DNA from: Adhaeribacter pallidiroseus
GTDB lineage: Bacteria; Bacteroidota; Bacteroidia; Cytophagales; Hymenobacteraceae
NCBI RefSeq assembly: GCF_003340495.1
Contig: NZ_QASA01000001.1
Location: 5,394,001-5,458,000 of the forward strand
Reading direction: 5' to 3'
DNA length: 64,000 nt
Below the pieces are notes generated by a model that worked only from the letters and a program-made list of their open reading frames with translations, had not been told where the DNA came from and did not search any database. Shown here piece after piece: positions 27,661-64,000 of this stretch (the first letter of the stretch is position 1; each line of letters starts with the position of its first letter). A program made the position numbers and the translations under genes.

Positions 27661-28773
27661 TTAAGCCAGCGTAAAATCTGGTAACGGAATTATCTCGCCG
27701 CCTTTCACCGCTGATTCGTGGGCCAGAATACCCACGCAGGTAATATTAGCCGATTGCTGGGCATTTGGATACGGTTCGCGGCCTTCTACTAAAGCGGTTA
27801 AGAACTCGTGTACCAGGTGCGGGTGCGACCCACCGTGACCAGAGCCCTGAATAAAAGATAAGTGCTGGTTTTCACCGGAGTCGTATACGCCTTGCTGGGT
27901 AAACGATTGAATCTCCTGCGGCAATAAATGCGCGTAATCCGGGGTTTTTACTTTCTCGGGAGTTTCGCCGGTATGGATTACGTTATCTTCGTGCTCCACC
28001 AACGTCCATTCGAACGATTTTTTGGAACCGTACACATCAAAGCTTTCGCGGTATTGGCGTGCCGTGTTAAATAAGGAGCGGGTTACCTCAGCCGACAAAT
28101 CCGAATCTTTTAGTTTAATGTGGCAGGATTCAATGGCAAATGGAGAACCGTATTTCGAAATTAAGTTTTCATCGATGCGGCCGGAACCAAAACACGACAC
28201 GTATTCGGCTTGCGCTTTTGGCAAAGCTAAAACTGGTCCTACACAATGAGTAGCGTAATGCATGGGCGGCAAGCCTTCCCAGTAACCTGGCCAACCGGCC
28301 ATTTCCTGCTGGTGCGAAGCCCGGATAAATTGCAGCTTGCCCAGTTCACCTTTCTCGTACATTTCTTTCACGAACAAGAATTCGCGGCTGTAAATCACCG
28401 TTTCCATCATCATGTAGGTTTTGCCGGTTTCTTTTACGGCTTCTACAATCTGGCGGCATTCTTCTACGGTAGTAGCCATAGGAACCGTACAAGCCACGTG
28501 CTTACCCGCCCGCAAAGCGGCCAGCGATTGCTCGGCGTGGCTTTGAATGGGGGTGTTAATGTGAATGGCATCTACTTCCGGGTCATTTAACAACTCGGCG
28601 TAATCGGTGTAGCGTTTTTCAATTCCAAAAGCATCGCCTATTTCGTTCAGCTTTTCTTCGTTCCGCTGACAGATAGCGTACATGCTAGCGTTCGGGTGTT
28701 TCTGGTAAATAGGAATAAATTCGGCACCAAAACCGAGACCGACAATGGCTACTTTGATTTTTTGTTGCGTCAT
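27661..28773 (-). CDS. Gfo/Idh/MocA-family protein lacking the EKP catalytic lysine
   Basis: 370 aa. The N-terminal Rossmann domain has VAIVGLGFGAEFIP for NAD(P) binding; the C-terminal alpha/beta domain follows. At the usual E-K-P site it reads ACTVPMA: T96, V97, P98, so the lysine normally used in hydride transfer is Val. The active-site region reads GLPPMHYATHCVGP and there is a HGGSHPHLVHEF segment. I recall this CTVPMATT form as a recurrent subfamily in Bacteroidota, so it is not a chance mutation. It may act as a non-dehydrogenase (lyase, epimerase or glycoside-cleaving) enzyme. It heads a sugar-metabolism island. Confidence 0.85.
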   Translation of the reverse strand: MTQQKIKVAIVGLGFGAEFIPIYQKHPNASMYAICQRNEEKLNEIGDAFGIEKRYTDYAELLNDPEVDAIHINTPIQSHAEQSLAALRAGKHVACTVPMATTVEECRQIVEAVKETGKTYMMMETVIYSREFLFVKEMYEKGELGKLQFIRASHQQEMAGWPGYWEGLPPMHYATHCVGPVLALPKAQAEYVSCFGSGRIDENLISKYGSPFAIESCHIKLKDSDLSAEVTRSLFNTARQYRESFDVYGSKKSFEWTLVEHEDNVIHTGETPEKVKTPDYAHLLPQEIQSFTQQGVYDSGENQHLSFIQGSGHGGSHPHLVHEFLTALVEGREPYPNAQQSANITCVGILAHESAVKGGEIIPLPDFTLA

Positions 28774-28828
28774 AGTTTTTATGATTTTTGAAATTAGTAC
28801 GTTTTTTTAAAGTTTTTTAGGCTGTTCT

Positions 28829-29048
28829 TTGGAGCCGGTTCCCGTCTCCAGGTATTGGTGCTGTCTAACTTGCTGGCTTCAAGTTTGCCTCGTGGCCGAC
28901 GGGCCTCGTTTGGCTCTTCCGGGCTGGTCTAAGCTTCCTTTCCTCGTACCTCGGAATGCTGCGCACCGGAACCTTAGAAGGCCCTACACAGCCAAACTGG
29001 TGTCGTTTATGCTTAGCTTCGGCTTGTCTCACTCATTTAGAATAGAAG
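28829..29048 (+). repeat. Dispersed intergenic repeat family A, copy 4
   Basis: Aligns in reverse complement with copy 5 (36725-36945) along about 210 bp: TCTCCAGG/TGGTGCTGTCTAACTT at the left, TTTGGCTCTTCC in the middle, CTTTCCTCG core, AGCCAAACTGGTGTCG, TTTA at the right. In copies 4 and 5 the middle carries GGCCGACGGGCC-type palindromes where copies 1-3 carry the CTCCCCT-AGGGGAG cassette. Confidence 0.75.
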
Positions 29049-29081
29049 AATGGTTAATTTAGTTAAGACTTTATTATAGCT

Positions 29082-29137
29082 GTCATTCAGGAGGAACCTA
29101 TTTAGCTACGTAGCCAACTAGGTTCCTCCTGAATGAC
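29082..29137. repeat. Perfect 19-bp hairpin, repeat family D
   Basis: GTCATTCAGGAGGAACCTA (29082-29100) and its exact complement (29119-29137) enclose an 18-nt loop that itself contains the palindrome GCTACGTAGC. A half copy is at 5662-5700. Confidence 0.75.
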
Positions 29138-29173
29138 TGAAAAATTTTAAATTTTTTTAAAATTTTGCTCATA

Positions 29174-29447: not shown

Positions 29448-30359
29448 CTACTTTGCTATTAAAGCACTCGCAATACCATCTTCCTGCTTAACCTTTTCTT
29501 CCCCTTTAGCCCATTTTTTTAAAAATTGAATGCCTTCCGAAGCAAAACCATCCTGGCTTTCGGCGAGTGGGCGCCAGATGCAGACGGCTCCGGCCAGTTC
29601 TTTTACGTTGGGGGTGAAACTTTCAATGGCAACGGCGCCCTGGTAGTTAATGGCGGTTAAGCCGCGGTAAAAGGCATCCCAGCGGGTTTGGCCGGTGCCC
29701 GGCGTACCGCGGTAATTTTCGGATACTTGCACGTGCCGCAGTTTATCGCCCGTTAAAAGAATGGCTTTCTCGATATCTGGTTCTTCAATGTTCATGTGGA
29801 AACCATCCAGCGAAACCTGGGCAGCCGGATGATTGATGTCGCGGATTAACTGCATCACGTCTTCGGCATTGTTTATTAAATCGGTTTCGAAACGATTGAT
29901 GGGTTCCAAGGCAATGGCTTGGCCGTATTGGTCGGCGATAGCGCACACTTTTTGCAGGTTGGTAACTGCCCGGTCCCATTCAACTTTCTTTTGTTCCGGC
30001 GAAACTAACCTGGCTTTACCCACCGCTGAATACATCGGACCCGATACAAAAGAACAACCAATGGCTTCGGAAATCTGAAAACATTGGGTAATGTATTCGA
30101 TGCTGTTACGTTGGTAGAGTTCGTCTTCGTGGGTTAAATCGCGGGTAGTACCAAAGGCACCGCAAATTAGACCTTCCAAACCATTTGCCTCCAGTGCTTC
30201 TTTCAACTTGGGAGCGTCTATTAAACTGGTATCCTCCACGGGAATCTCTACTACGTCGTAACCCATCGATTTAATTTTGGGAAATAATGCCAGCGTAGTG
30301 GAATCGAAAGGGGACGTCCAGAGCCAGGTGCTTACGCCAAATTTTACGTTTAATGCCAT
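29448..30359 (-). CDS. Sugar phosphate isomerase/epimerase, D-tagatose/D-psicose 3-epimerase-like
   Basis: 303 aa xylose-isomerase-like TIM barrel. From memory of D-psicose 3-epimerase it keeps family numbering: E152 (ALEPINRFETD), D185 and H188 (LDGFHMN), R217 and E246 (AIESF). The usual metal ligand H211 is Gln (HVQVSE, Q211), as in hydroxypyruvate-isomerase-like proteins, with a His two residues earlier. So metal use is plausible but substrate may differ from known ketose epimerases. The C-terminal WRPLAESQDGF is 3-epimerase-like. It lies 26 bp downstream of a terminator that separates it from the ThuA gene upstream of the gap. Confidence 0.88.
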   Translation of the reverse strand: MALNVKFGVSTWLWTSPFDSTTLALFPKIKSMGYDVVEIPVEDTSLIDAPKLKEALEANGLEGLICGAFGTTRDLTHEDELYQRNSIEYITQCFQISEAIGCSFVSGPMYSAVGKARLVSPEQKKVEWDRAVTNLQKVCAIADQYGQAIALEPINRFETDLINNAEDVMQLIRDINHPAAQVSLDGFHMNIEEPDIEKAILLTGDKLRHVQVSENYRGTPGTGQTRWDAFYRGLTAINYQGAVAIESFTPNVKELAGAVCIWRPLAESQDGFASEGIQFLKKWAKGEEKVKQEDGIASALIAK

Positions 30360-30384
30360 AAAAATTTAAAAATCTGTGAGAAAT

Positions 30385-30439: not shown

Positions 30440-33400
30440 TTAGTTCGTTACTTTCATAACCCCGTTCATGATGCGCCAGTGACCCGGGAAGGTACACACG
30501 TAAGGGTAATCGCCGGTTTTTTGCGGAACTTTAAACCGGATTACCGTACGGCCTTCGGGATTCACTAAGTCAGTAGCGGCAATTACTTCGTTCATTTTGG
30601 GCACGTAATTTTTCTCAGCGCCTTTCGGGTCGGCGGCTAGTTTATCCGCGGCAGCACCAACTTTATCGGTCATGCCGGTCATTACCAGTACCCAGTTGTG
30701 CTGCATAAAATCCGGATTTTCCAGTACCAATTCTACCACCTGACCGGCTTTTACGGTAAAGGTTTTTTTATCGAATTGCATCTGTTCTTTCACCACTTTC
30801 AGGTTAATGGTAACATCGGCTTTTTCGGTGGCAGGCACCGCGGTAACCACAATAGAACCTACTTCCAGGAAGGTATTTGATAAATTACCATCAAAATTAA
30901 AATCGTCTTTATAGGGGCCAAATTTTTTGTCGTCTTTTCCACCTACACCAATAGCTAAATCAGAGGTAAGCGGTTGTTTAAACAAACCTGGCGCTTTGCC
31001 TTCAGCTACCGTTTTACCATCGAGTTGCAGGGCCAACTTGCCATTTTGCGCTAATTGCGCAACCACTTCAAAGCGGTTTTCCTGCGGCACAGGAGCAGAA
31101 ATAGAATAAGGTTTGCCGTTTTGTTTTACCAGCAAGTTTACCTTATCGTCATCAATGTACAAGCCGTAGCCTTGGTTAGTATCGCCGTGCGTCATAATTA
31201 CGCCGCTAGGTTTGCCGGTTCTTGGTTTTATTACCGCCGATTTAATGGTTACTTCTTTGCCTGCAACATTCGGAGCTTCGGTGGCCGGCATCCGTGACCA
31301 TCTTTCCAGTAACCGTACATCTTTATCTAAGCTTTGAGTAATACGAGGTACTAAACCAGCCGAAGCTGATTCAGCGGCTTTACCGTCTTTTTGCATGGCT
31401 TCTTTAAAGCCTGCCTGGTGCTTGGCCGTGGCTACAAATAAAGCCTGCGCTAAGGCTGGGTCTTTGTCATTGTCAGGGGATAAACTAGCGGTATAAATTG
31501 CTTGCCCAATATCCGAAGCCGTTGGCATTTCGGCCAGGGCCAGTATAGCGCTTAAACGGGTGGGTTGCGCCGGGTCGTTAATCAGGTTAGATTTTAACAA
31601 AGCTTGTTTTACTTCCGGCGTATGGGGTAGTACCTGAATAGCGGTTTTACGAACGCCCGCTGCCGGGTGCGATAAAGCTCTGATAGCTACCTGTAAAGCT
31701 TCTGGGTTAGAGCCCGATAATGCACCTAAGCCGTGCATGGTCCAGAGCGCGTGCACTGCCGGGGCGTTTACCCCAATTTCGTCTACGCTTTGGTTAGCGG
31801 CTATTTTGTACAATTCTGGTAATACAGATTGGTGTTTGCCTTCCACGATTAACCGCTGGGCCGTAGTACGCCAAAACATATTATCGTTGTTTAAAGCAGC
31901 TACTAAGGTTTCGGGTTTGGTTTTGTCTAATTTAACCGGATCATACGGTTTGGCGTTTTTGTAAACTACCCGGTAAATCCGGCCTTTATCATGGTCGCGC
32001 AAAGGGTTAATGTAGGCATTGCCTTTGCCATTTTCGGCCTGGTAACCGCCACGCTCTGGCGTAGGAGTAGGGTTGTGCTGAATTATAAAGTCGTACCAGT
32101 CGGCGACCCAAACGGCGCCATCCGGACCAACTTCGGCGTGTACCGGGCCCATCCATTCGTCGGATGAAGCCAGGAAGTTCCAGCCGTCTTTTTCGACGTA
32201 ACCGGCACCGCTCGGCTCCATAATGGCGTTATGCACTACGCGGCCGGTGGGTTCGCACACAAAAGCAATGCGGTTCCAGTATTCTTTCGGGAAGTTACGG
32301 GCCGTGTATAAGTTATGACCCGCCGCCGCGGTAAAGCCGCCTTGTACGTCCACCTGGCGCAGGTTGGGCGTCATGGTGTGCATGTCGTAATGGCCGTCTA
32401 TTTTCTTAATTCCTTGCGCGCCGCTGCCGCCAACCAGCACTCTTTTTAAATTTTTATCGGGCATGTAGTAATACGCGCTGTGCGTATTATTGGCCGTGGA
32501 TAAAAACACGTCAAAATTTTCGTTGAAGCCTAAGCCCCAGGTATTGTTGCTGGTTTTGGCTAGATATTCCAGGTTTTTACCATCGGGATTAAAGCGGTAC
32601 AAACCCTGGCTAAAGGCAAGATTCTGGTTTTCGCCGGTGCCTTTAAAAGCCGAGTAACCCACGGTGCCCCAGATTTTGTTATCCAGACCGTATTTTAAAT
32701 TAGAAGGGCCGGCGTGCGTATCAGATTTTCCCCAGCCTTCCAGAATTACTTCGCGTACATCGGCTTTGTCGTCGCCGTTGGTGTCTTTTAAGAATAAGAA
32801 TACCGGGGCTTGCGAAATAACAATACCGCCGTTGGCAAACACAATGCTGGTCGGGATATTCAGTTTATCGGCGAAAATGGTAAACTTATCGGCTTTGCCG
32901 TCGTTGTTGGTGTCTTCGCAAATTTTAATGCGGTCGTCGCCAACGCCATCTTCTTCGCGTACTTCGTTGGGATAATCTACGGTTTCAATTACCCACAAAC
33001 GGCCGCGTTCGTCCCAGGCCATGGAGATGGGATTGATAATATCCGGCTCGGCGGCAAATAATTGCAAATCAAAATCAACGGGTACCTGAATGAGTTTCTG
33101 CGACTCGGCGGGACTTAACGGATTTTGAAATTTCGGCGCCGGATTGCGCTTTTCGTAATTCGGTACGGCGGCATCTACGTACGTTAAAGTAGGTAAGGCT
33201 AATTTCTCTACTTGTTTACTGAGCTTATCACCTACCGCCCATAAAACACCGTTGCCAATTAATTTCTGAAAGCCGGGGTTATTCCAGGTGCGCTCGTCGT
33301 GGCCGTAAGCGGTATAAAATACGCGGCCTTTGCCTTGCTCCCGCACCCAGGTCCAGGGTTCCGGGCGGCCGCCTTCGTCGCGGGTCATGAGTACTTTATT

Positions 33401-33937
33401 ATCCGGATTTAATTTATCATGCACGTAGGTTTCGTCCCAGGTAGAAAACTCGGTAATGCCTTGCATGGTGGGGTGTTTGGCATCCGTAATTTTCGCCGTA
33501 AAATCGCCGGTTTTGTGGCTTTTAAACTGGCCACCCACCATTTTAATGTAGTTCTCGGAATTCTGAAAACAAAATGACGCGCAATGAATAGGAATAAAGC
33601 CTTTGCCGCTCTCCACAAACTCCGTTAACGCCTGGTCCTGCTCTGGTGCGATTTTTTCGTGGTTGGCGTAAATGATCAAACCATCGTATTTTTTTAAATT
33701 TTCGGAATTTAAATCCGTGGGAGTGGTGGTATAGGTGATATTGATGCCGCGGCTAAACAAAGCCGTGGCCAGGGTGGGGGCGTATTTATCGGAGTTGTGG
33801 TGCTCGCTTTTATGACCTAAAAACAAGACTTCGATTCGCCGGGGAGCTTGGTTATTGCTTTGGCTGGAGTTGGGGTTTTTCATACAACTACCCACCAGCA
33901 GCGCAATCAAGAGAACTAAATAAATACTACGTTTCAT
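30440..33937 (-). CDS. Multidomain lipoprotein: ThuA, beta-propeller dehydrogenase-like, HEAT-like, LamG-like and azurin-like domains
   Basis: About 1,165 aa. A lipobox (LLVGSC) follows a short signal, so it is probably envelope-anchored. Order: ThuA-type glutamine-amidotransferase-like fold (about 35-245, FLGHKSEHHNSD and FIPIHCASFCF); beta-propeller like the PVC-type membrane-bound dehydrogenases (about 290-640, MAWDERGRLWVIETVDYPNE); HEAT-like helices (about 690-860); a LamG-like sandwich (about 890-1040); a cupredoxin domain (about 1050-1165) with QHNWV and CTFPGHWRIM giving the azurin-type His, Cys, His, Met copper set. No CxxCH haem motif is present. The Met at 33937 is preferred, with another ATG two codons earlier. 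It may pass electrons from sugar oxidation to copper. Confidence 0.85.
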   Translation of the reverse strand: MKRSIYLVLLIALLVGSCMKNPNSSQSNNQAPRRIEVLFLGHKSEHHNSDKYAPTLATALFSRGINITYTTTPTDLNSENLKKYDGLIIYANHEKIAPEQDQALTEFVESGKGFIPIHCASFCFQNSENYIKMVGGQFKSHKTGDFTAKITDAKHPTMQGITEFSTWDETYVHDKLNPDNKVLMTRDEGGRPEPWTWVREQGKGRVFYTAYGHDERTWNNPGFQKLIGNGVLWAVGDKLSKQVEKLALPTLTYVDAAVPNYEKRNPAPKFQNPLSPAESQKLIQVPVDFDLQLFAAEPDIINPISMAWDERGRLWVIETVDYPNEVREEDGVGDDRIKICEDTNNDGKADKFTIFADKLNIPTSIVFANGGIVISQAPVFLFLKDTNGDDKADVREVILEGWGKSDTHAGPSNLKYGLDNKIWGTVGYSAFKGTGENQNLAFSQGLYRFNPDGKNLEYLAKTSNNTWGLGFNENFDVFLSTANNTHSAYYYMPDKNLKRVLVGGSGAQGIKKIDGHYDMHTMTPNLRQVDVQGGFTAAAGHNLYTARNFPKEYWNRIAFVCEPTGRVVHNAIMEPSGAGYVEKDGWNFLASSDEWMGPVHAEVGPDGAVWVADWYDFIIQHNPTPTPERGGYQAENGKGNAYINPLRDHDKGRIYRVVYKNAKPYDPVKLDKTKPETLVAALNNDNMFWRTTAQRLIVEGKHQSVLPELYKIAANQSVDEIGVNAPAVHALWTMHGLGALSGSNPEALQVAIRALSHPAAGVRKTAIQVLPHTPEVKQALLKSNLINDPAQPTRLSAILALAEMPTASDIGQAIYTASLSPDNDKDPALAQALFVATAKHQAGFKEAMQKDGKAAESASAGLVPRITQSLDKDVRLLERWSRMPATEAPNVAGKEVTIKSAVIKPRTGKPSGVIMTHGDTNQGYGLYIDDDKVNLLVKQNGKPYSISAPVPQENRFEVVAQLAQNGKLALQLDGKTVAEGKAPGLFKQPLTSDLAIGVGGKDDKKFGPYKDDFNFDGNLSNTFLEVGSIVVTAVPATEKADVTINLKVVKEQMQFDKKTFTVKAGQVVELVLENPDFMQHNWVLVMTGMTDKVGAAADKLAADPKGAEKNYVPKMNEVIAATDLVNPEGRTVIRFKVPQKTGDYPYVCTFPGHWRIMNGVMKVTN

Positions 33938-34490
33938 GTGCATATTTTACTTTCCTACCTACAAGAATTTATAATATTACTAAATAAACCTGCTAAAACT
34001 AAGACGCTTTTACAAGTTTACTAATTTATTACCGGGTATACTGCCTGTTTTTTAACCGAAACTGACTGTATATTGACTAATTCCGGATACTTTCGGGAAC
34101 ATCCGGTATAATATACAGGAAACGTTATTGCGTTTTAAGGCTAAAGTTGCGCGAAAACCCGCAGGAGGGTATTATCTAGAATAGGGTTGAGTAGCCTATC
34201 TTTAGAATGTTGGCAAGTCTGGCGAGCGAAATAATGGTCTATCGTTTAATGTACCGAACATAGCCGGTACAAACACAAGCCGGTGCGTTAAATTTCTGGA
34301 AGAACTTAACGTACCGGCTTCATTTTTTAAAATATTTCTTTTTAAGCTAAATACTACTGGGTAACTCTATCCTTGGTAAAGTACCGGGACCGGGGTAATT
34401 ACGATTATTATCCATTTAAACTCTGCGGGAATGTTATCGTAGTAGAGCAAATTAGGAAACCTTAAATTTTTCACTCAAAGCGCTTTACCT
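33938..34490. other. Intergenic gap with an unassigned terminator-like hairpin
   Basis: About 550 bp with no convincing reading frame. The only strong structure is the hairpin at 34277-34328. The left end holds the promoter region of the ThuA fusion gene. Confidence 0.5.
34277..34328 (+). terminator. Strong terminator-like hairpin with no known gene upstream
   Basis: AAGCCGGTGCGTTAA (34277-34291) pairs with 34306-34320 over 15 bp (one G-T wobble, 14-nt loop) and is followed by CATTTTTT on the plus strand. No plus-strand gene precedes it within the gap, so it may end an unannotated small RNA. Confidence 0.55.
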
Positions 34491-35626: not shown

Positions 35627-35773
35627 ATAAGGTATTGTTTAGGTAGTTCCGGTAAAATCTGCGGTACAAAAGAATAAAAATTTACTACTGGTTGCCACCT
35701 CTCTATTCACAACTTCTGATACGCCATTAAATAAATTTTTAAAAATTTGATTAAATACTTTAAATTAGTACAG

Positions 35774-36628: not shown

Positions 36629-36724
36629 GTTTTTTTAAATTTAAAAAATCGGAAAATCACTTCTCTTTTCAGCCTTAAAGTAATTTTCATGCTTTATTCT
36701 TTCTTTTAAATATTTCAAATGAGA

Positions 36725-56800: not shown

Positions 56801-58064
56801 TTAAAGGGTCGTGGGTGTAATGAACATATTTATTTGTTTTTCTATCTAAGTAACTTAAACCACCGCCATCCGTGCCCAGCCACAAGTTTCCGGAATCATC
56901 TTCTAAAAAGCAGGTAACATCCCGGTTACTTAAAGTGTAGTTTCCGGAGGGGTATATATTGTAATGATTAAATTTTTGCTGGTGCGGGTCCCACTTATCC
57001 AGTCCCCGGTTCCGGGCGCCAATCCACATGGTGCCTACCTTATCCCGGTAGATAGACCACAGCGAATTACTACTAATGCTATACGGGTCCAGCGGATTAG
57101 GCGAATAATTGGTAAAGGTGTTCTGTTCCTGGTCATAAATAGAAAGCCCGCCAATCTGGGTGCCAATCCAGAGCCGGCCAGCTAAATCTTCCGAAATACT
57201 TATAATGGAATTATTGCTTAAACAATTAGGGTTACTTTTTTGGTGCTGGTACCGTTTAAATACTACCCCGGCCGGAGTTTCCATAAAAAGATTCAAGCCA
57301 TTTTGGGTACCCAGCCAAATATTACCTTTCGAATCTTTATAACAAGTTCTGACTACATTATTGCTCAGGCTGCTGCTATTAGTGGCGTCGTATTTATGGT
57401 GTTTAAACGATTTATTAACCCGGTCAAATAATTCTAAGCCGCCGCCTTTGGTACCCACCCACAAGTTATTCTTGCTGTCTTCGAAAATAACCCCGATGTT
57501 ATTATCCGCAAGACTGCGGGAATCAGTAATATCGTTCCGGTAATGAGTAAAGCTTTTTTTATCCTGCCGAAATACATTCAAGCCATTTTCCGTACCCACC
57601 CATAAAGCATGATTTTTGTCTTCGTAAATACAGTTAACAGAATTAAAACTTAAGCTATTGGGGTTGCTTTTATTATGAGTAAAGTGCGAAAAAGTATCGT
57701 TGTCGCGGTTATAAAGATTTAAGCCTCCTTCCAGAGTGCCTACCCACAAGTTGCCTTTACTATCTTCGAATAAACAGCTTACGTAGCTATGGCTTAAACT
57801 AGAACTATCTTCATTTACGTTTTCGTAAGTAGTAAACTCTACGCCATCGTACCGGTTAAGTCCGTTTCGGGTACCAAACCACATAAATCCTTTGCGGTCC
57901 TGCCACATACAAGTAACCGTACTCTGCGAAAGCCCGGCAGATAAATGCTCGAATTTGAGATTACTACCACCCTGCTTCGTTTGAGACCAGCCGTTAAAGG
58001 TTGGCCAAACTAAAAGAACTAAGGTTACGATTAAAACAGATTCCCCCTTCAACAACCGCATCAT
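53823..58064 (-). CDS. Hybrid two-component system regulator (HTCS): propeller sensor, kinase, receiver and AraC HTH
   Basis: About 1,413 aa, in one chain. Signal sequence (VLIVTLVLLVWPTFNGWSQ). A periplasmic sensor of about a dozen two-component propeller repeats (30-690; SLFEDSKGNLWVGTLEGGL and kin) and a Y_Y_Y domain (to about 810) precede a membrane helix near 825. Cytoplasmic part: histidine kinase with FFANISHEFRTPLTLILSPL (His near 878) and ATPase region (DSGVGIP, GTGIGLSL); receiver with DLIISDVLMP (Asp near 1199); AraC-type HTH at the end (about 1310-1405). ATG at 58064 is preferred over an in-frame TTG. HTCS typically sense oligosaccharides and activate adjacent catabolic genes. Confidence 0.95.
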   Translation of the reverse strand: MMRLLKGESVLIVTLVLLVWPTFNGWSQTKQGGSNLKFEHLSAGLSQSTVTCMWQDRKGFMWFGTRNGLNRYDGVEFTTYENVNEDSSSLSHSYVSCLFEDSKGNLWVGTLEGGLNLYNRDNDTFSHFTHNKSNPNSLSFNSVNCIYEDKNHALWVGTENGLNVFRQDKKSFTHYRNDITDSRSLADNNIGVIFEDSKNNLWVGTKGGGLELFDRVNKSFKHHKYDATNSSSLSNNVVRTCYKDSKGNIWLGTQNGLNLFMETPAGVVFKRYQHQKSNPNCLSNNSIISISEDLAGRLWIGTQIGGLSIYDQEQNTFTNYSPNPLDPYSISSNSLWSIYRDKVGTMWIGARNRGLDKWDPHQQKFNHYNIYPSGNYTLSNRDVTCFLEDDSGNLWLGTDGGGLSYLDRKTNKYVHYTHDPLKDNSLGSNSVLSLLMDRQHHLWVGTWGGGLNRFDKKTQTFKRYLPNAADPASINGNNIFSLCEDSSGKLWVGVFLGGLNLYDPHTDSFSHYNYNHNDATSLSNNKIIKIFEDSKKNLWIGTDGGGLNLMHWAGKDQVTFTRYNYDSNSPGSLSSNVINAITEDKNHNLWIGTWKGLNKFNYQQQTFEVYRKEDGLPDNVINGILEDNKGFLWLSTNQGISRFDAAGKKFKNYTTADGLQSPEFIRGSYLKSKAGELFFGGVNGFNSFFPANIHDRLFTAPLYLTQFNIRHTLIKPNQKNSPLRQHISETKEITLSYDQSDFSFGFVALNYALASKIRYAYKLVGYDKDWQKAGNQRSANYAKVPPGTYTFRVRSTITNDLWNKEEATVKITITPPWWKTWWAYSLYSLAFAGLLIWYRQNLIKQLRLKADLQLEHLELTKMQEMERLKSNFFANISHEFRTPLTLILSPLKDMYSGKFNGDFKQQYQVMIRNAERLLRLINQLLDLSKLDSGHMQLEAARVNLIDFLKTIFSSFESYAQKKNLKFSFEHPVEPILVYFDPDKLEKVFLNLLSNAFKFTSTGEIKLAVELVTRSGEKASNNQCPIAYVAICVTDSGVGIPADCVNYVFDHFYQVAQRVHPGDIEGTGIGLSLAKELVELHQGKIEVESKLGIGTTFKVLLPLGKAHLKEPELEVPDWQPTFKNPASTSIEPLASAATVTTTNDSKSKEVELPVILLVEDNTDLRTYLKERLEQNYHVLEAANGADGLKMGLDKMPDLIISDVLMPKMNGVELCRALKNNVQTSHIPLILLTAQADSENKIEGLETGADDYVSKPFDSNELEVRVKNLIKSREVLRDRFAQNNKLILEPKEITITPLDEIFMKKVLESIEKNMANTEYRVEDLGEDVAMSRMPLYRKIKALTGQTAVEFIRTIRLKRAAQLLKQQQLHVSEVTYDVGFNDLQYFRTCFKKQFGLSPSEYAKLHADVKMEAASDN

Positions 58065-58671
58065 TTTATTTTCCAAAAAGTACTGCCCCCTAATTTATCC
58101 GCTTTTATGAAACTACCAGTTACGATGAGGTAAGTAGTTTTATTACTCCTGTAGGTAACTCATTAGTTAAACTAGTAGAATTAATAAATAAGATTTAGTT
58201 GTTAAAAGCAGATAAAGCAGTTATAGCCGTGAGAAGCTAATTGTAAATTATATAGTAAGATTACCTTAAAAATGCAGCTTCGTTAACAACTAAAGTTTAT
58301 TCTTAAAAAATATTAATTTTAAGAGAAATAACTGTTTAAAATACAGATTTAGCGAGATATTAACAAGATCCCTTTATCTTATTTTACAACTTTAAAAGTT
58401 AACAGAATTAAATTGCGGCTGGGCGTATGATGGCCACTATTTATAACTTATAGATAAAGCAGCCGGAAGGAAAATCAAAAAACTACTAGGAAATACTCTG
58501 GAAGGAGAAAAGTACAGGCCAGCAAACAATGACTACTGAATAAGTGGCGTAACTACTAAAATTAAAAAAATACCTGTAATCTCCCCGGCAAAAGCTAATA
58601 GTGGCACCGGTAAAAGTTTAGGCCACCATCAGCTTCTTCTAAGAAATTTAAAAATAGTACCAGGCAACAGG
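58065..58671. other. AT-rich gap upstream of the hybrid regulator
   Basis: About 600 bp. Holds the promoter of the hybrid regulator and the end of the PhyH gene. It is AT-rich with several T/A-runs; I see no full promoter match, strong hairpin or small gene. Confidence 0.5.
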
Positions 58672-59565
58672 CTATTGGTAAGAAGGCGAAGGAAAATTGT
58701 ATTCTTTCTTCCAGGTATCGCTCATACGGGGGTATTCTTGGCGGCAGGCCAGGTACTCCTCCATCATTTGGCGCATGGTGGGGCTTAAGGTATGCAGGTA
58801 ATTTTCGGTTAATAAATCGTCGTTGAGCAGATAAAAATGCCAGGTGGGTGGATGCTGGGCGCTATGATAACCCATGTGCAGCGTGCGCCGGGGATTTTTC
58901 ATGACTTCGGTATAGCCCCGGTGAATTAAGTTGTTGTTGTATAAAACGGCCTGTCCCGCTTTTAAAGTTACCGGAACGCCGCCGGGCATTTCGGCGCCAA
59001 TGGGCGCATAATGTTTAGAACCGGCAAAAGCTGCATTTTCGGCTGCAGTATTCGGGCGGTTATGGCTGCCCGGAACCACCCACAGCGAATTTTCATCTAC
59101 CAAGGGCAAATTAATCTGCACGCTGTTATGAAACCGTTCCGGCGAAAAAAGCCAATCTTCAATTTCGTCTTGCGGAATTTGAATAATATCGCGGTGCCAA
59201 CCCAAAGAATAAGACGTGCCTTCGTTAGCGGCCAGAATAGACGCATTGTTCACGATCAGGTTGGGGCCAATAATTTCTTCCACGGCTTTTAACATAACCG
59301 GGTGGTGAAAAGCATGATGAATGGGTTCGGTGCCGGGCTTGGTTAAGAGGTGAAAATAATATTGCCGCGCTTCCTTACCAAAATCCGAAATTTCGTCGCC
59401 TAAATGCTGGAAAGACGAACTGTGCTTTTTTGTATCGGCTGCTTTTACCTGCGGGCTCAGTAAAGCATCCATTACTTTTCTAAAATCCTGTATTTCAGGC
59501 TCGGTGAGTACCTCTATAATCACGTAGCCTTCTTCGAGAAACTTTTCTTTATTCGACTTTTCCAT
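58672..59565 (-). CDS. Phytanoyl-CoA dioxygenase-family (PhyH) protein
   Basis: 297 aa. Iron ligands H124-x-D126 in GWHRDI, distal His in NNNLIHRGYTE and anchoring Arg in PRRTLHMGY make up the expected Fe(II)/2-oxoglutarate site. C-terminal YLACRQEYPRMSDTWKKEYN is typical of a subset acting on small organic or sugar-like substrates. It follows the Gfo/Idh gene by 13 bp in the same direction, so it is probably in that operon. Confidence 0.88.
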   Translation of the reverse strand: MEKSNKEKFLEEGYVIIEVLTEPEIQDFRKVMDALLSPQVKAADTKKHSSSFQHLGDEISDFGKEARQYYFHLLTKPGTEPIHHAFHHPVMLKAVEEIIGPNLIVNNASILAANEGTSYSLGWHRDIIQIPQDEIEDWLFSPERFHNSVQINLPLVDENSLWVVPGSHNRPNTAAENAAFAGSKHYAPIGAEMPGGVPVTLKAGQAVLYNNNLIHRGYTEVMKNPRRTLHMGYHSAQHPPTWHFYLLNDDLLTENYLHTLSPTMRQMMEEYLACRQEYPRMSDTWKKEYNFPSPSYQ

Positions 59566-59578: not shown

Positions 59579-60742
59579 TTAATTATTTTTTAAAATTATT
59601 TTCTGACCAGTGGCCGCCGATTGCAGACCGGCCTCCAGCACCTTTATTATTTTTAAACCATCGTGGAAGTTTGGTTCTACGGTTTTATTTTCGGCAATGG
59701 CCTTTATAAAATCTACCACGGCGTGCACAAACGTATGCTCGTAGCCAATAATATGGCCGGCCGGCCACCAGTTTTGCACGTAAGGATGCAGGGCATCGGT
59801 GGTCAGAATTTTCCGGAATCCTTGTAAACCGGCGGGGTCACTGTTAGAATAAAACAAAAGCTCATTCATGTTTTCCAGGTCGAAAGTTAGGCTGCCTTTG
59901 CTGCCGTAAATTTCAAAAGTATTGTGGTTTTTCCGGCCGGTGGCAAAGCGGGTGGCCTCAAACGAACCAATCGCGCCGTTTTCGAATTCCACAAGCATTA
60001 GGGCCGCATCTTCCACGGTAACTTCGCCGGTTTCGCCGGTTTTGGCTTCGGCGCTTAAATTGCCGCTGGTCGTTTCATCGGCCAATGGTCTTTCTTTAAT
60101 AAAGTTAGTGGTTAAACACGATACCGATTTGATATCGCCTACCAGGTACTGCGCTAAATCTAAACTATGGGAATTTAAATCCCACTGCGGACCGGCCTGA
60201 GCAGTTTCTTTGCGGAGTTGCCAGGTAAGCGGGAACTCGGGGTCTACAATCCAATCTTGCTGATAAGCGCCCCGCCAATGAAATATGCGACCTAACTGGC
60301 CTTCTTTAATTAATTTTTTGGCGAAAGCAATGGCGGGTACCCGCCGGTAATTATGATTTAAATAATGAGTTACCTTATTATCCTCACAAACCCGGAGCAT
60401 TTCTTCGGCTTGCTGGGAGTTCATGGCCAGGGGTTTTTCACAAAAGATATGCTTGCCTGCTTTGGCAGCAGCTATGGCAATTTCGTAGTGCAAATGTTGC
60501 GGCAGCGCAATATCAATAATATCAATATCCGGCCGCGTTACCAGTTTTTTCCAATCGGTTTCCGTTTCTTCCCAGCCCCATTTTTGGGCAAATTCTTTTA
60601 AGGAAGCTTCGTGCCGGCCGCACGCTACTTTTAAAACCGGAGTACGCGGAAGATCGAAAAAATGGGGAGCTTGAAGCCAGGCATTGCTGTGCGCCCGACC
60701 CATAAATTTATAACCTATTAGTCCTACGTTTAAAGTTTTCAT
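59579..60742 (-). CDS. Gfo/Idh/MocA-family oxidoreductase
   Basis: 387 aa. N-terminal NAD(P) Rossmann fold (VGLIGYKFMGRAHSNAW) and a normal E102-K103-P104 motif (FCEKPLA) indicate a working dehydrogenase. The C-terminal domain has FHWRGAYQQDWIVDPEFPLT, WDLNSHSLDLAQYLVGDI (Asp/His catalytic region) and an EATRFATGRKNHNTFEIYG sheet. It likely oxidises a sugar hydroxyl with NAD(P). The next gene upstream (SPI) ends 4 bp before its start, and the PhyH gene starts 13 bp after it, indicating a tight operon. Confidence 0.92.
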   Translation of the reverse strand: MKTLNVGLIGYKFMGRAHSNAWLQAPHFFDLPRTPVLKVACGRHEASLKEFAQKWGWEETETDWKKLVTRPDIDIIDIALPQHLHYEIAIAAAKAGKHIFCEKPLAMNSQQAEEMLRVCEDNKVTHYLNHNYRRVPAIAFAKKLIKEGQLGRIFHWRGAYQQDWIVDPEFPLTWQLRKETAQAGPQWDLNSHSLDLAQYLVGDIKSVSCLTTNFIKERPLADETTSGNLSAEAKTGETGEVTVEDAALMLVEFENGAIGSFEATRFATGRKNHNTFEIYGSKGSLTFDLENMNELLFYSNSDPAGLQGFRKILTTDALHPYVQNWWPAGHIIGYEHTFVHAVVDFIKAIAENKTVEPNFHDGLKIIKVLEAGLQSAATGQKIILKNN

Positions 60743-60746: not shown

Positions 60747-61607
60747 TTAGCTTAACCGGTGGCTAATTTCCTTCAGCGCGCGTACACTTTGTTGTACTAC
60801 CTCTACTTCCCGATTGGTATAATCTGGATGCAGAAAATCAATTTCAACGGCCAGAAATCCCTGGTAGTTATGTTTTTTTAAAATTTCAGCTAACTTCTCG
60901 TTCTGAATTAATCCTTCGCCGGTGGGCACGCAGGAGAAAAAATACCACTCGTTTACCGGCACTCCCTTTACTGGTTTTAAATCTTTAATATGCGTAGCAA
61001 AAACATGCGGCGCCAGTTTCTCCATGGCCTGAATAGGGTCATCCAAGACCCGCAAAAAGTTACCGGAATCGAAATTTACGCCAAAGTTGGGCAGATTTAC
61101 ATTGGTTACCAATTGCAGAATCTCGTCGGAATTATAATCGATGTGGTTTTCTACGGCCAGCTTAATATCGTAGCGGGCGGCCATTTGGGTGGCTTCGGTA
61201 AACATGCGGCTTAGTTTTTCCAGTTGCGGATCGTGCGGCTCGAACCGGAACAGCAAACTGCTGCCTACTACCCGCATTACCTTAGCTCCTATTTGGTTGG
61301 CGTATTCAATGTGCCGGACCATATCGGCAAACGCTTGTTCATTTTTACCGCCTTCCAAGCCATCCGGGTGGCCCCAGGCATACACCCGGTCTAACCCGGA
61401 AGAATCGAGGTGTTCTTTTATGAATTTTAGATAAGATTGGTCGAAACTGGGCAAAAAGCAGGATTCTAAGGAAACGCCGTCAATATCCAGGCTGTTTAGT
61501 TGGGTTAAAAAATCTTCAAAACTCAACTCTTTATTCGGTTTTTCCTGGCCGGGATACACTTCCCCGAAAAGCCGATGGTAACAGTAACTGTCGATTCCTA
61601 CCTTCAT
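60747..61607 (-). CDS. Sugar phosphate isomerase/epimerase-type TIM barrel
   Basis: About 286 aa starting MKVGIDSYCYHRLFGEVYPG. The frame is open 21 codons upstream. Barrel motifs: GVSLESCFLP (Glu), KLAVENHIDYNSDEI (Glu), FGVNFDSGNFLRV (Asp), HVFATHIKDLKP (His) and GFLAVEIDF (Glu). Separated by 4 bp from the Gfo/Idh gene, so translationally coupled or co-transcribed. Substrate not determined; a keto-sugar isomerase or lyase is likely. Confidence 0.88.
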   Translation of the reverse strand: MKVGIDSYCYHRLFGEVYPGQEKPNKELSFEDFLTQLNSLDIDGVSLESCFLPSFDQSYLKFIKEHLDSSGLDRVYAWGHPDGLEGGKNEQAFADMVRHIEYANQIGAKVMRVVGSSLLFRFEPHDPQLEKLSRMFTEATQMAARYDIKLAVENHIDYNSDEILQLVTNVNLPNFGVNFDSGNFLRVLDDPIQAMEKLAPHVFATHIKDLKPVKGVPVNEWYFFSCVPTGEGLIQNEKLAEILKKHNYQGFLAVEIDFLHPDYTNREVEVVQQSVRALKEISHRLS

Positions 61608-61721
61608 ATAAGTTGTATTTTTATGTTCGATTAAGTTTTCTGATTCCCTGACCATCCAGAATCCATTCAAATTATAGCTGAACTAGGGCAAGTAATGGTG
61701 ATTTTAGCGGTAACTACCTGT

Positions 61722-63335
61722 TTATTTTAAAATACTTTTGCTTTTATCTTCTCCGGCTACCCAAACAGCGGCATTCCGCAACATTTTTTTCATTTCCGGC
61801 GCTTGGAAGGAACTGGCGTTATGCCCCAACAGGGTTTGGAATATTTTACCTTTACCGTAGTTATACACCCAGGCTAACGGTTCTTCCTTGCCCGTCTTTT
61901 TGGAGGTTGCTGTAAGTAAAGGTTTAATGGGTTCGTCTCCTTTTTGATTGAAATACAATTCGTCGGTTGTTTCAAAATCTTTTATTCCGGCGGTGATGGC
62001 GCTGGGCGCTTGGGTTACTTTAACCGTAAACTTGCCAAAATTATCGTGGGCGCTATTGGATTGATGGTCCCAGACCCGGCGTACTATTTTCCGGTATTCC
62101 GGCCAATCGGTATTGCCGGCTTCCGGTAAGGAATAATGAAAAGCGCCATCCGCGAAATGAATAACCATCAGTCCGCCGCCATTATTTAAATAATTGGTAA
62201 AGGCTGTTTTGGATTTTTGTTTTAATTGCGTGGAGTCTTTCCAGTTACAATAATTTAAAATAAGTACCTCGTAATCTTTTAAATCGTACTGCGATAAGTC
62301 TTCTATGTTAGTAGATACATCCACCCAAAAAGGACTGTCTTGTTCTACCGCGGCTTTTAGTAAAGGGGTGGTTTCCTGCCACGGATGCGCCGGATGGTTA
62401 TTACCGGTAAACAGGAGAGCTTTGCGGGATTTTTGGTATAAGTGCTGCGTTACTTCCTGATCAGAATAAAACTGGGCCTCGACGCCATTTTTAGGCACCG
62501 TGGCTTTGGCCGCCCAAACAATGCCATTCAACATGAGTTTCCGAAAAGCAGGATTTTCCCAGTTCGCGTAATAGTGGCCCATGGTGGTACTAAAGCCTCG
62601 TCCTCCGTCGGTGCGTTCTACTGCCCAGGCGGTGGCTTTTCCTTTATCGGCGCGGCCATTTAGTTCCGGAACTTCGGCGACAACTTTTAAACGGGAATCT
62701 TGCTCCCGGAAGCGAATATTGTAATAAAATTCGTCCTTCAGTTTAAAAGGTTTAACGCCGTTTACTACCGGATGGCTAGAGGCGGGCAAATTAATCGTAC
62801 CATCCAGCGTTTTAATAGCCGAATACCAGTTGCGTTTACCCGTATCGTCCTGCCAGTCGTAATAACCACCACCCCATTCCAAAATCTTTTTACCAATAGA
62901 ATCAGGGGCAAACGTCGAGAAATGAATAAGCGCCAAGCCGCAACCTCTTTTTATTTGCTTTTCCATTACCGGCATGCGTTCCGGAGTCATAAAAGGAACT
63001 TCCGAATACAAGTCCCCATCCCGGCCGTCGGAAGTAAAAAGAATTAAATCCGCATCGTCCAGCGTAGCCGGATTTTGTGGCCAGCCGTGCAAATAAATTT
63101 CGGTTTTTATGCCTTTTACATTGGATTGGTCCAGCATGGTTTTTAACAGGCGCACGGTTTTAATATACTCGTGAAAGCCGGCATCGTGGCTTTTCTCCCC
63201 GGCAATTAAAACAATCTTTCTGGTTTTAGCAGCGCTGCTATTAGTTCGGGTTACGGGTGCTGCCGATACTCCCAGGTAAAAAGCCATTATTAAACTCACC
63301 AACAGAACTAGCCGAAACACCAGGTTATTCTTCAT
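61722..63335 (-). CDS. Exported protein with two tandem ThuA domains
   Basis: 537 aa with signal peptide (VFRLVLLVSLIMAFYLGVSA). ThuA domain 1 (about 38-275): RKIVLIAGEKSHDAGFHEYI, LILFTSDGRDGD, CGLALIHFST, GHYYANWENPAFRKLMLNGI. ThuA domain 2 (about 305-525): KALLFTGNNHPAHPWQETTP, VLILNYCNWKDS, GGLMVIHFADGAFH, YGKGKIFQTLLGHNAS. Both keep the GGxLxxIHF motif. ThuA proteins act with ThuB-like Gfo/Idh enzymes in 3-keto-disaccharide metabolism. Upstream of the SPI/Gfo/PhyH genes, same direction. Confidence 0.88.
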   Translation of the reverse strand: MKNNLVFRLVLLVSLIMAFYLGVSAAPVTRTNSSAAKTRKIVLIAGEKSHDAGFHEYIKTVRLLKTMLDQSNVKGIKTEIYLHGWPQNPATLDDADLILFTSDGRDGDLYSEVPFMTPERMPVMEKQIKRGCGLALIHFSTFAPDSIGKKILEWGGGYYDWQDDTGKRNWYSAIKTLDGTINLPASSHPVVNGVKPFKLKDEFYYNIRFREQDSRLKVVAEVPELNGRADKGKATAWAVERTDGGRGFSTTMGHYYANWENPAFRKLMLNGIVWAAKATVPKNGVEAQFYSDQEVTQHLYQKSRKALLFTGNNHPAHPWQETTPLLKAAVEQDSPFWVDVSTNIEDLSQYDLKDYEVLILNYCNWKDSTQLKQKSKTAFTNYLNNGGGLMVIHFADGAFHYSLPEAGNTDWPEYRKIVRRVWDHQSNSAHDNFGKFTVKVTQAPSAITAGIKDFETTDELYFNQKGDEPIKPLLTATSKKTGKEEPLAWVYNYGKGKIFQTLLGHNASSFQAPEMKKMLRNAAVWVAGEDKSKSILK

Positions 63336-63627
63336 TATTTTAGACTAAAGTAAATTAGTTATCTTTTTATAAGTAGATAGCTAGGGCACTAAGGTTAATA
63401 AAATATAGTGCGTATGTAGAAAGAAATAAATAATATTATTTAATAAACCCTTTTTCCAGCATTCTGCAAGAATCTAATCAGTAGAAAGTAATAGCCGACC
63501 AACCAGTGAAAGTAAATGATCCGTAAAGAGGAACCGAACGGCTTTCTTATTTCTCCGTTTAGCGCTTGGTTCTGGTTAGTTCCTTTCCGGATGACCGGGA
63601 AATAAGCAAGGTTATTATTTTAATTAA

Positions 63628-64000
63628 CTAATTTAGATAAGTTTTTAAGGCAACAGTATCACCGAGCGATTTTAAAATTTTCTTTAAGCCGGTCAAGTTC
63701 ATTTGCAAGCCTACTTCGGCATCCGGGTCGGTGTATTCATTAATTATGCCTACGGGGCCGCGGTATTTACTTGCTTTTACTACCCGCATCATTTCTAATT
63801 CGGCATTTCCCTGCCCAACAGGCACAATCTTTACCGGATTACCCGTTTGAATACCCGAAAGGTTAAGTGCCAGCAGGTGGGGCACTATCTTGGGAAAAAA
63901 TTCGGCAAAGCGGGCTACGTGCGCTTCGGCATGATTAAAGTTATAAACCATGCCCACGTTGGGCATTTTTAAATATTCTATAATGGCCAACTGATTTTCG
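63628..64000 (-). CDS. Sugar phosphate isomerase/epimerase-type TIM barrel (5' end beyond the window)
   Basis: C-terminal 124 residues only; the reading frame is open to the right edge (ENQLAIIEYLKMPNVGMVYN). The visible part has the metal-ligand strand MVYNFNHAEAH, LLALNLSGI and RGPVGIINEY with the last Glu, as in xylose-isomerase-like barrels. It ends DTVALKTYLN. It is a fourth member of this family in the window. Confidence 0.75.
   Translation of the reverse strand, partial: ENQLAIIEYLKMPNVGMVYNFNHAEAHVARFAEFFPKIVPHLLALNLSGIQTGNPVKIVPVGQGNAELEMMRVVKASKYRGPVGIINEYTDPDAEVGLQMNLTGLKKILKSLGDTVALKTYLN

Follow-up and report, generated by a model that had tools for sequence, protein, structure and literature searches.

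The window analysed here (64,000 nucleotides of the Adhaeribacter pallidiroseus genome) contains two islands, each of which carries Gfo/Idh, PF01261, ThuA and PhyH genes, with DUF1080 and HTCS genes in island 2; all of these are matched by Pfam (Table 1). Do the two islands encode one sugar pathway in parallel versions, or do they merely draw on the same protein families?

Table 1. Features of the two islands; window-equivalent positions continue the numbering of the window past its end.
Feature	Position	Strand	Basis or remark
Island 1: Gfo/Idh-fold protein, cassette	27661..28773	-	Pfam; motifs across 62 cassette proteins
PF01261 TIM barrel, D-tagatose/D-psicose 3-epimerase-like	29448..30359	-	Pfam, NCBIfam, alignment
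Secreted ThuA + DUF7133 propeller + HEAT + laminin-G + azurin	30440..33943	-	Pfam, alignment, structure model, Foldseek
PhyH-family Fe/2OG oxygenase; HQD (H124), distal H210	34817..35626	-	Pfam
AraC-cupin regulator 1, divergent from PhyH	35747..36628	+	Pfam
AraC-cupin regulator 2, counterpart of conserved cassette regulator	37028..37924	+	Pfam
Island 2: 284-aa protein, no Pfam match; 28% identical to neighbouring PD40 protein	48972..49826	-	
PD40 propeller protein	50054..51616	-	Pfam; second copy, 46% identical, past window (L009:9521-11068)
PF01261 TIM barrel, TAT-type N-terminus	51662..52498	-	Pfam; paralogues 65-69% in L009, L069
DUF1080 (3-keto-disaccharide hydrolase family), arginine-rich signal-like N-terminus	52670..53590	-	Pfam, 75.3 vs 26.8 bits
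HTCS: Reg_prop, Y_Y_Y, HisKA, HATPase, receiver, AraC HTH	53823..58076	-	Pfam
Second PhyH protein; nearest solved, EvdO1; HRD (H124)	58672..59565	-	Pfam
Levoglucosan-dehydrogenase-like Gfo/Idh, EKP intact	59579..60742	-	Pfam, NCBIfam, motif alignment
PF01261 TIM barrel	60747..61670	-	Pfam
Tandem ThuA-ThuA, halves 24% identical, signal-like N-terminus	61722..63335	-	Pfam
PF01261-like gene, partial in window	63628..64000 (full to window-equivalent 64569)	-	27 bits, below cut-off 31.1
SusD	window-equivalent 73519-75303		past window end
SusC	window-equivalent 75245-78385		past window end

Kinship between the two islands

The initial annotation described the islands as matching sets, i.e., as parallel 3-keto-glycoside pathways in which Gfo/Idh oxidises C3 and a PF01261 barrel or DUF1080 cleaves. 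Every family that it named was found, and the island 2 Gfo/Idh keeps EKP and scores 393.6 bits against the model of levoglucosan dehydrogenase (NCBIfam LevoglcsnDh), below the cut-off of 650. However, counterparts across the islands are related at the superfamily level only: the best BLAST matches between island 1 and island 2 are 24% identical for Gfo and 29% for ThuA, the two PhyH proteins do not match each other, and the epimerase-like TIM barrel of island 1 matches none of the island 2 barrels. Moreover, island 1 has no DUF1080 gene by Pfam, the EKP lysine is absent from all 62 cassette Gfo/Idh proteins, and BLAST finds a relative of the island 1 PhyH in 0 of 80 cassette loci. Compared with the BT2156-2160 3-keto-glycoside loci, DUF1080 is shared by island 2 only, and the BT_2158 and BT_2159 dehydrogenase models (cut-offs 750 and 650) fail in both islands, with 44.2 and 47.6 bits in island 1 and 31.8 and 23.8 bits in island 2. 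As an account of both islands, the parallel reading is very improbable, and one pathway in parallel versions is rejected: by sequence comparison, the islands are unrelated. The broader idea of oxidation-first sugar chemistry remains fair for island 2, given its levoglucosan-dehydrogenase-like Gfo/Idh with EKP, PF01261 proteins and DUF1080, and is only partly apt for island 1, where the lysine-less Gfo/Idh also carries a GH109-type GxGHGG loop.

Genome-wide, 41 PF01261, 36 Gfo/Idh, 16 ThuA, 20 DUF1080 and 4 PhyH matches were found. At least three of the six families co-occur in 12 clusters, a count inflated by fused proteins that may count as two families. This is more than expected by chance: 2000 random placements averaged 0.84 such clusters and never gave more than 5. 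The two islands are 2 of the 12 clusters. The best overall explanation, to which we give an even chance, is that the window holds two unrelated things: a conserved copper-linked sugar-oxidation cassette (island 1) and a rare SusC/D-HTCS locus (island 2).

The conserved cassette of island 1

Judging by gene content and order, island 1 has at its core a portable cassette of four genes that is common to many Bacteroidota. It comprises an AraC-cupin regulator, a secreted ThuA-propeller-HEAT-laminin-G-azurin protein, a ketose-3-epimerase-like TIM barrel and a Gfo/Idh protein. All four genes occur in 53 of the 62 ThuA-anchored loci whose flanks were long enough to test; 47 of the 53 share one gene order and 6 have a permuted one. 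In four of the 62, the ThuA protein is accompanied by none of its three cassette partners. The cassette extends over 28-29 genus or clade labels, compared to 6 for the next most widespread neighbour family. In an independent, Gfo-anchored sample, 24 of 395 genomes of the phylum encode a cassette-type Gfo/Idh. With the window's own locus excluded (n=23), and with some contigs stopping near the match, a ThuA-DUF7133 protein with azurin lies nearby in 18 loci, the TIM barrel in 16 and an AraC homologue in 9; in 3 of those 18 the azurin is a separate neighbouring gene, and the ThuA-azurin protein is absent from five of the 23 (L208-L212). The PhyH gene and its own AraC regulator are a separate pair inserted into the cassette here and in two genus mates.

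The true paralogue of island 1 is a locus of the same genome (L041, 2.47-2.48 Mb, 44-61% identity), whose neighbours are a GH127 gene, a gene for a LacI-type regulator and a SusD match. No transporter, glycoside hydrolase or SusC/D gene was found to be conserved among the neighbours of the cassette loci; BLAST with a single query each for SusC and SusD, which probably undercounts, gave matches in 7 and 2 of the 80 loci, respectively. The cassette might therefore serve another polyol or a cell-wall product, its Gfo/Idh and TIM barrel acting on inositol-like or modified sugars with no glycoside breakdown, and inositol enzymes do occur within both families (NCBIfam matches). However, the known enzymes closest to the TIM barrel are free-ketose 3-epimerases, the laminin-G domain of the secreted protein (a CBM-type domain in the related locus L146) suggests a glycan ligand, and the paralogue has the surroundings described above, which makes this alternative unlikely.

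A secreted propeller and a lysine-less Gfo/Idh

The fusion of ThuA with a copper domain was the most informative part of the initial annotation. The protein has a lipobox-like LVGSC and a TIGR02604 N-terminal domain (268.3 bits, cut-off 122.2), and it contains no CxxCH heme site, but an azurin Cx4Hx3M motif instead. The azurin domain (Copper-bind, 43.1 bits, cut-off 21.2) matches auracyanin in its modelled fold (6kol, 34% identity, target TM 0.88 in Foldseek), and its predicted copper ligands H1082, C1150, H1155 and M1159 are invariant in 41 aligned sequences, an alignment that excludes the three of 77 relatives in which the C-terminus lacks this azurin motif. Among these 77 near-full-length ThuA-DUF7133 relatives (window included), 75 have azurin (C-terminal Cx4Hx3M in 74, an internal domain in L088), two have cytochrome c in its place (L146 and L150, both PVC-phylum MAGs) and none has both. 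Likewise, the 17 DUF7133 proteins of this genome comprise 11 with cytochrome c, 4 with a cupredoxin, 2 short ones with neither and none with both. In L199, L203 and L205, an adjacent Copper-bind gene encodes azurin separately, and L208 has a separate cupredoxin-HEAT gene near DUF7133, for which BLAST finds homologues in L209 and L212. By this distribution, the propeller's electron carrier is interchangeable, heme or copper; this interchange and the retained copper ligands indicate electron transfer.

A possible role of the propeller itself is suggested by more distant kinship. Four of the genome's DUF7133 proteins score above the Pfam cut-off for glucose/sorbosone dehydrogenase (GSDH) as well, and the island 1 DUF7133 group has a weak profile link to the genome's ThuA-GSDH proteins (hhalign probability 42). 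The genome encodes five GSDH-PKD-cytochrome c proteins, with Pfam matches to ThuA in four and to CBM6 in four. Foldseek matches the propeller to the PQQ sugar dehydrogenase 3a9g (target TM 0.64, rmsd 8.3, 10% identity) at rank 28, under chance matches to lectin-like domains. Alternatively, the propeller could be a glycoside hydrolase that its azurin or cytochrome c domain serves just to tune or anchor: purified Lac161_ORF7 (TIGR02604, HEAT and cytochrome c) hydrolysed lactose and was reported as a β-galactosidase, not a dehydrogenase (PMC5342196). The dehydrogenase kinship, the low-ranking fold match, the carrier swap and the conserved copper ligands all argue against a hydrolase, which we regard as quite unlikely. 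Sugar oxidation in island 1, if any, more likely resides in the secreted propeller-azurin protein.

The cassette Gfo/Idh contradicts, by its sequence features, a plain 3-dehydrogenase reading, as does the interchangeable carrier of the propeller. The window's protein has T96-V97-P98 at the EKP site, H313 in the GxGHGG loop and H176 in THCVGP; the lysine-less T-V/I-P and the GxGHGG loop are both present in 62 of 62 cassette proteins, a family that scores as generic oxidoreductase only. In GH109 enzymes, a GGHGG-type loop is catalytic. Among 35 Gfo/Idh proteins of this genome, GHGG is limited to the cassette protein, its paralogue and one true GH109 (L021), which matches the GH109 C-terminal domain PF21252 at 2e-90; no such match was found up to E 0.1 in the window protein, L041 or L072. 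GH109 2ixa is the second PDB match of the cassette profile, with an extra match over the loop. At the position of the YxHD tyrosine of GH109, however, the cassette proteins have an invariant His. The structure model is weak at the loop (pLDDT 70), and Foldseek places dehydrogenases first and GH109 at rank 29 and below. The lysine-less site and the GH109-like loop make redox-neutral, NAD-dependent cleavage likelier than plain dehydrogenation.

The order and conservation of the genes, the domains of their products and the active-site motifs are observed; from these we infer the following functional steps: The AraC-cupin regulator would sense a sugar, and the surface or periplasmic lipoprotein would bind carbohydrate by its laminin-G domain. 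Its PQQ-sugar-dehydrogenase-like propeller might oxidise the bound carbohydrate and pass electrons via its own azurin domain to the respiratory chain. The oxidised product could then enter the cell and meet the epimerase-like TIM barrel and the Gfo/Idh-fold enzyme, which might perform NAD-dependent oxidation, elimination, hydration and reduction in one site. We tentatively propose, at well below even confidence, a widespread, undescribed Bacteroidota pathway of extracellular sugar oxidation with built-in azurin, followed by cytoplasmic cleavage of the oxidised glycoside by lysine-less, GH109-like redox-neutral enzymes, with no need for a classical glycoside hydrolase. The apparent combination of a secreted sugar-oxidising enzyme, a copper electron carrier and an unusual cytoplasmic enzyme seems to have no description in the literature searched. 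If true, ThuA-DUF7133 proteins, for which that literature gave one biochemical report, could be assigned as sugar dehydrogenases with interchangeable heme or copper carriers, and a conserved, generic-scoring Gfo/Idh family would become a candidate NAD-dependent glycosidase family. A four-gene cassette with its own regulator, kept together across distant genera, makes both readings directly testable.

Island 2 and comparison with known systems

The initial annotation regarded both islands as free of SusC/D. This is correct for island 1, where no SusD match lies closer than about 36 kb, and wrong for island 2: its SusD/SusC pair lies 9.5-14.4 kb beyond the window end and seemed missing only because the window ends there. 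Judged by gene content, island 2 is the visible half of a rare sugar-use locus with SusC/D and HTCS, and it probably applies an already known oxidise-eliminate-hydrate-reduce logic to a predicted glycoside. With the levoglucosan pathway (LgdA-LgdB-LgdC) and the Bacteroides BT2156-2160 pathway it shares an LgdA-like Gfo/Idh, PF01261 proteins and DUF1080; it differs by a Gfo/Idh under the LevoglcsnDh and BT_2158/2159 cut-offs and by the additional tandem ThuA and PhyH proteins. A SusC/SusD pair, as in polysaccharide utilisation loci, is present for island 2 and absent near island 1. The likeness to the trehalose Thu pathway is the ThuA domain.

The island 1 cassette resembles several systems in part. 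Its secreted protein is similar to TIGR02604 “PVC-type heme-binding CxxCH” proteins in the N-terminal domain, but differs from TIGR02604 and PF07995 proteins in that azurin replaces the CxxCH cytochrome c domain, and in its N-terminal ThuA and the laminin-G domain ahead of azurin; all four copper ligands of azurin/auracyanin cupredoxins (His, Cys, His, Met) are present. The TIM barrel aligns over nearly its whole length with D-tagatose/D-psicose 3-epimerases (E 2.8e-36). Of the predicted metal ligands E152, D185, Q211 and E246, the Glu, Asp and Glu are retained, whereas the epimerase His is Gln in 66 of 68 sequences, and the NCBIfam score of 171 is below the cut-off of 300. NAD-dependent sulfoquinovosidases constitute family GH188. 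They are Gfo/Idh-like redox-neutral glycosidases (PMC10755693). ArSqgA keeps Lys107 at the C3-OH, whereas the cassette enzyme has no lysine at the EKP site. With the NAD-dependent α-N-acetylgalactosaminidases of GH109 (2ixa, 6t2b), the cassette enzyme shares the Gfo/Idh fold, the missing EKP lysine, the GxGHGG loop and a TH.VGP-like motif, but it differs in lacking a PF21252 match, in having His where GH109 has the aligned tyrosine, in its gene context and in its 370 aa with an N-terminus that is not signal-like.

Family content of the genome and the relation between the islands

The two islands of the window, island 1 (27.7-37.9 kb) and island 2 (from about 49 kb to beyond the window end), had been described in the initial annotation as matching gene sets for keto-sugar glycoside metabolism without SusC/D. 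The protein families named for both islands were all recovered by Pfam where they had been placed; overall, the observation is partly confirmed and its interpretation partly supported. The genome of 6.43 Mb contains 41 matches to PF01261, 36 to Gfo/Idh, 16 to ThuA, 20 to DUF1080, 18 to DUF7133 and 29 to SusD, and only four to PhyH. Clusters with at least three of six families number 12, versus a mean of 0.84 and a maximum of 5 in 2000 random trials (input: 19 of the 20 DUF1080 matches, as one lies on another contig, and 17 of the 18 DUF7133 matches, the excluded one being the split half of the paralogous locus L041). Since the two islands are two of these 12 clusters, they do not form a singular pair.

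Nor do they match in sequence. When the island proteins were compared with the ORFs of the window and of 60 own-genome stretches picked around these families (excluding one Gfo/Idh, 5361452, and one PF01261, 6154510), no cross-island pair proved to be a best paralogue, the best cross-island identity being 24% for Gfo/Idh and about 29% for ThuA; the PhyH proteins of the two islands gave no BLAST match to each other. Paralogous copies are therefore ruled out: island 1 pairs instead with L041, located at 2.469-2.485 Mb of the same genome, which holds the best paralogues of its Gfo/Idh, TIM barrel, ThuA part and propeller part (50, 44, 61, and 53% identity, respectively), together with a GH127 gene, a LacI-type regulator and, just past the stretch, a SusD match. 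Paralogues of island 2 proteins lie elsewhere (L026, L069, L009, and L028).

For island 2, the supposed lack of SusC/D reflects the window end, which falls within a PF01261-like gene. Past it come, in order, DsbD-like and thioredoxin genes, a ThuA gene flanked by two PF01261 genes, another PD40 gene, a redoxin gene and finally SusD and SusC as a pair. Together with the hybrid two-component system, this gives the island the appearance of a polysaccharide-utilisation-type locus. The island 2 Gfo/Idh has an intact EKP motif, matches PDB entries 4h3v and 6a3f, and reaches 393.6 bits against the levoglucosan dehydrogenase model (cut-off 650). Homologues occur in 12/395 phylum genomes, own included, and their gene neighbours differ from those of island 2 in the 10 loci read of the 11 others. 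For the tandem ThuA protein, in 291 order genomes, with the own genome as positive control, one other genome gave a match, to one half only and at 38%, and 0/12 genus and family genomes did. Levoglucosan breakdown, as outlined in PMC10066097, proceeds by oxidation, elimination, hydration and reduction; because its middle steps are performed by two PF01261 proteins, this logic fits island 2. DUF1080 proteins are linked, in PMC9007349, to the breakdown of 3-ketotrehalose and, via fitness data, of 3'-ketolactose.

The four-gene cassette of island 1

The core of island 1 is a cassette of an AraC-cupin regulator, a ThuA-DUF7133-HEAT-LamG-azurin protein (ThuA protein), a PF01261 TIM barrel, and a Gfo/Idh. 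As comparative results, the cassette and the exchange of its electron carrier are solid, while the chemistry is a proposal of moderate confidence. A search with the ThuA protein (1167 aa) yielded 158 relatives, 80 of which were kept; the family cluster comprises 79 proteins including that of the window, 77 of them exceeding 850 aa. Where at least 3.5 kb was available on either side (62 loci), the TIM barrel was found in 58, Gfo/Idh in 55, AraC-cupin in 54 and the complete set in 53. AraC followed by the divergent ThuA protein, TIM and Gfo/Idh is the order in 47/62 loci, a permuted order occurs in six, and in four none of the other three genes lies beside the ThuA protein. Across the 80 loci, the cassette genes cover 28-29 genus or clade labels, taken from record titles, versus six, mostly flavobacterial, for the next commonest neighbour family. 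The flavobacterial neighbours (ten cluster representatives, including a histidine kinase, a LytTR regulator, a helicase, an FAD protein and an esterase) were rejected as pathway genes. With one query each, SusC-like genes were found in 7/80 and SusD-like genes in 2/80 loci. By cassette proteins, the nearest named relatives are Adhaeribacter species (ThuA protein 70%, Gfo/Idh 87%).

Because these loci had been picked by the ThuA protein, a second test was anchored on Gfo/Idh, which is present in 24/395 phylum genomes. Among the 23 loci other than that of the window, some on contigs ending close by, a ThuA-DUF7133 protein with azurin was nearby in 18, the TIM barrel in 16 (three matches being just 27-33% identical), and an AraC homologue in nine. 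The other five (L208-L212) are more distant, and in four of them DUF7133 is encoded nearby, by a gene of about 870-890 aa. The gap between the Gfo/Idh and TIM genes has a median of 10 bases in cassette relatives. Features with coordinates are collected in the table.

Coordinates of features in the window and in related loci
Location	Strand	Feature	Remark
Window 17461-22200		1579-aa DUF4011-AAA helicase-MTES_1575-DUF3320 protein	By architecture, possibly a defence-type gene
Window about 28835-29060 and 36700-36895	+ and -	Imperfect inverted repeat of ~200 bp bracketing the TIM-AraC1 part of island 1	Its exact 14-base core recurs nine times across seven further loci of the genome (L021, L024, L026, L029, L052, L055, L069) and once in either genus mate, L173 and L174, where it lies between Gfo and TIM
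Window 29082-29137		28-bp near-perfect palindrome (93%), no spacer, between the Gfo/Idh and TIM genes	Perhaps a terminator
L024:2469-5345		DUF7133 protein with N-terminal cupredoxin	By eye, the stretch after the cupredoxin is similar to the N-terminal part of the L208 (outgroup) DUF7133 gene
L041:9056-12675		Paralogous ThuA-DUF7133-azurin gene in two reading frames	Frameshift in propeller; decay or sequence error
L056:3216-5348		Own-genome DUF7133 protein	One of the 17 counted, at 26.2 against a Pfam cut-off of 27
L088:16746-20075		Order DUF7133, azurin, ThuA (1/77)	Circularly rearranged member; adjoins a standard cassette
L208:7529-16328		Gfo/Idh grouped with MFS, cupredoxin-HEAT, FG-GAP, DUF7133 and PhyH genes, in a distant Bacteroidota lineage	Possible ancestral or alternative cassette form

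PhyH does not belong to the core, as relatives of the island 1 protein (this PhyH group only, BLAST 1e-10) occur in 0/80 cassette loci. They were found in 7/118 genomes including the window's own: two genus mates carry 87% relatives within the same cassette, four other genomes carry 41-45% relatives, and all six have a divergent AraC-cupin-like gene beside PhyH. From this gene arrangement, the island 1 PhyH and its AraC are read here as a putative inserted two-gene unit. However, the outgroup L208 also has a PhyH beside its DUF7133 gene; this PhyH has one homologue, in L209, and gave no BLAST match to either window PhyH. The nearest solved relatives of the island 1 PhyH include SnoK, SnoN, MysH and EvdO2, which are natural-product oxygenases, partly sugar-acting.

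The ThuA protein and its electron carrier

The azurin domain of the ThuA protein is C-terminal. Its copper-ligand positions, four in number, show no variation across an alignment of 41 sequences, all with the azurin motif at the C-terminus, out of 77 near-full-length proteins. Of these 77, window included, 74 possess the motif at that end. In L146 (a Planctomycetota MAG) and L150 (a MAG labelled Akkermansia), ThuA and DUF7133 are combined with a C-terminal cytochrome c and no azurin. Judged from domain order, the carrier is swapped one-for-one, azurin versus cytochrome c, within one architecture. Among 17 own-genome DUF7133 proteins, 11 carry a CxxCH cytochrome c, four a cupredoxin, and two, both short, neither; none carries both. 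The cupredoxin is C-terminal in the window, L041 and L057, and N-terminal in L024. In three Gfo-anchored loci azurin is encoded by a separate Copper-bind gene adjoining a gene of 976-1011 aa that is a homologue of the ThuA-DUF7133 part, and the cupredoxin-HEAT gene near DUF7133 in L208 has homologues in L209 and L212. A carrier that is fused, split off or replaced is the pattern expected for a dehydrogenase and its electron acceptor, and makes the ThuA protein a putative dehydrogenase.

Four own-genome DUF7133 proteins also pass the cut-off for glucose/sorbosone dehydrogenase (GSDH), and GSDH occurs together with PKD and cytochrome c in another five proteins (ThuA hit in four, CBM6 in four); hhalign gave a weak match between DUF7133 and the own-genome ThuA-GSDH proteins. 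With the predicted model (mean pLDDT 85.7, pTM 0.75), Foldseek retrieved ThuA-like proteins, laminin G modules and auracyanin 6kol (34% identity, target TM 0.88), the PQQ-dependent sugar dehydrogenase 3a9g ranking just 28th (target TM 0.64, rmsd 8.3). Lectin-like matches of the five-domain model to unrelated large proteins were taken as a laminin-G fold coincidence. A different activity is suggested by Lac161_ORF7, a TIGR02604-cytochrome c protein reported, in PMC5342196, as lactose-hydrolysing instead. A literature search, with most subscription-journal papers and preprints beyond its reach, found no description of the cassette or of a protein joining azurin to ThuA or DUF7133.

Active-site residues and comparison with known enzymes

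D-tagatose and D-psicose 3-epimerases are the closest relatives of the cassette TIM barrel (E 2.8e-36). With ligand positions based on the metal-binding residues of characterised epimerases, the barrel keeps three of four metal ligands; the fourth, a histidine, is glutamine in 66/68. A keto-glycan pathway of broad specificity has reportedly been described from gut bacteria in a 2024 paper.

EKP is the canonical motif of Gfo/Idh proteins and has a catalytic role. At this site the cassette Gfo/Idh reads C-T-V-P: Thr and Pro occur in all 62 cassette proteins (a set that covers the window and L041 but leaves out two truncated proteins of 219 and 215 aa; 35/62 used in the alignment), with V between them in 61 and I in the one from L041. 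GxGHGG is present in 62/62 and THCVGP in 57/62, and GHGG and T-[V/I/A]-P recur in 23/23 Gfo-anchored relatives. Among 35 own-genome Gfo/Idh proteins read, GHGG is confined to the window cassette protein, its L041 paralogue, and L021, a true GH109 by PF21252. Exact EKP is absent from 11/31 BLAST-found own-genome paralogues, of which at least four retain the lysine (DKP, QKP, TKP), so that the telling feature of the cassette protein is the lost lysine, not the lost EKP.

The acid-base residue of GH109 reportedly lies within the GGHGG loop. The cassette Gfo/Idh is GH109-like in two motifs, but it has no match to the GH109 domain PF21252, and the part of it that aligns to the YxHD segment of GH109 has an invariant His (H154); the predicted model is unreliable there, its C-terminal half being too poor for placing the GxGHGG loop. 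PMC10755693 gives His404, Tyr226 and His259 as the proposed catalytic residues of AmGH109A (GH109), and Lys107 for the NAD-dependent sulfoquinovosidase ArSqgA. Based on its motifs, the cassette Gfo/Idh is a candidate for a new NAD-dependent glycosidase or lyase family, distinct from GH109.
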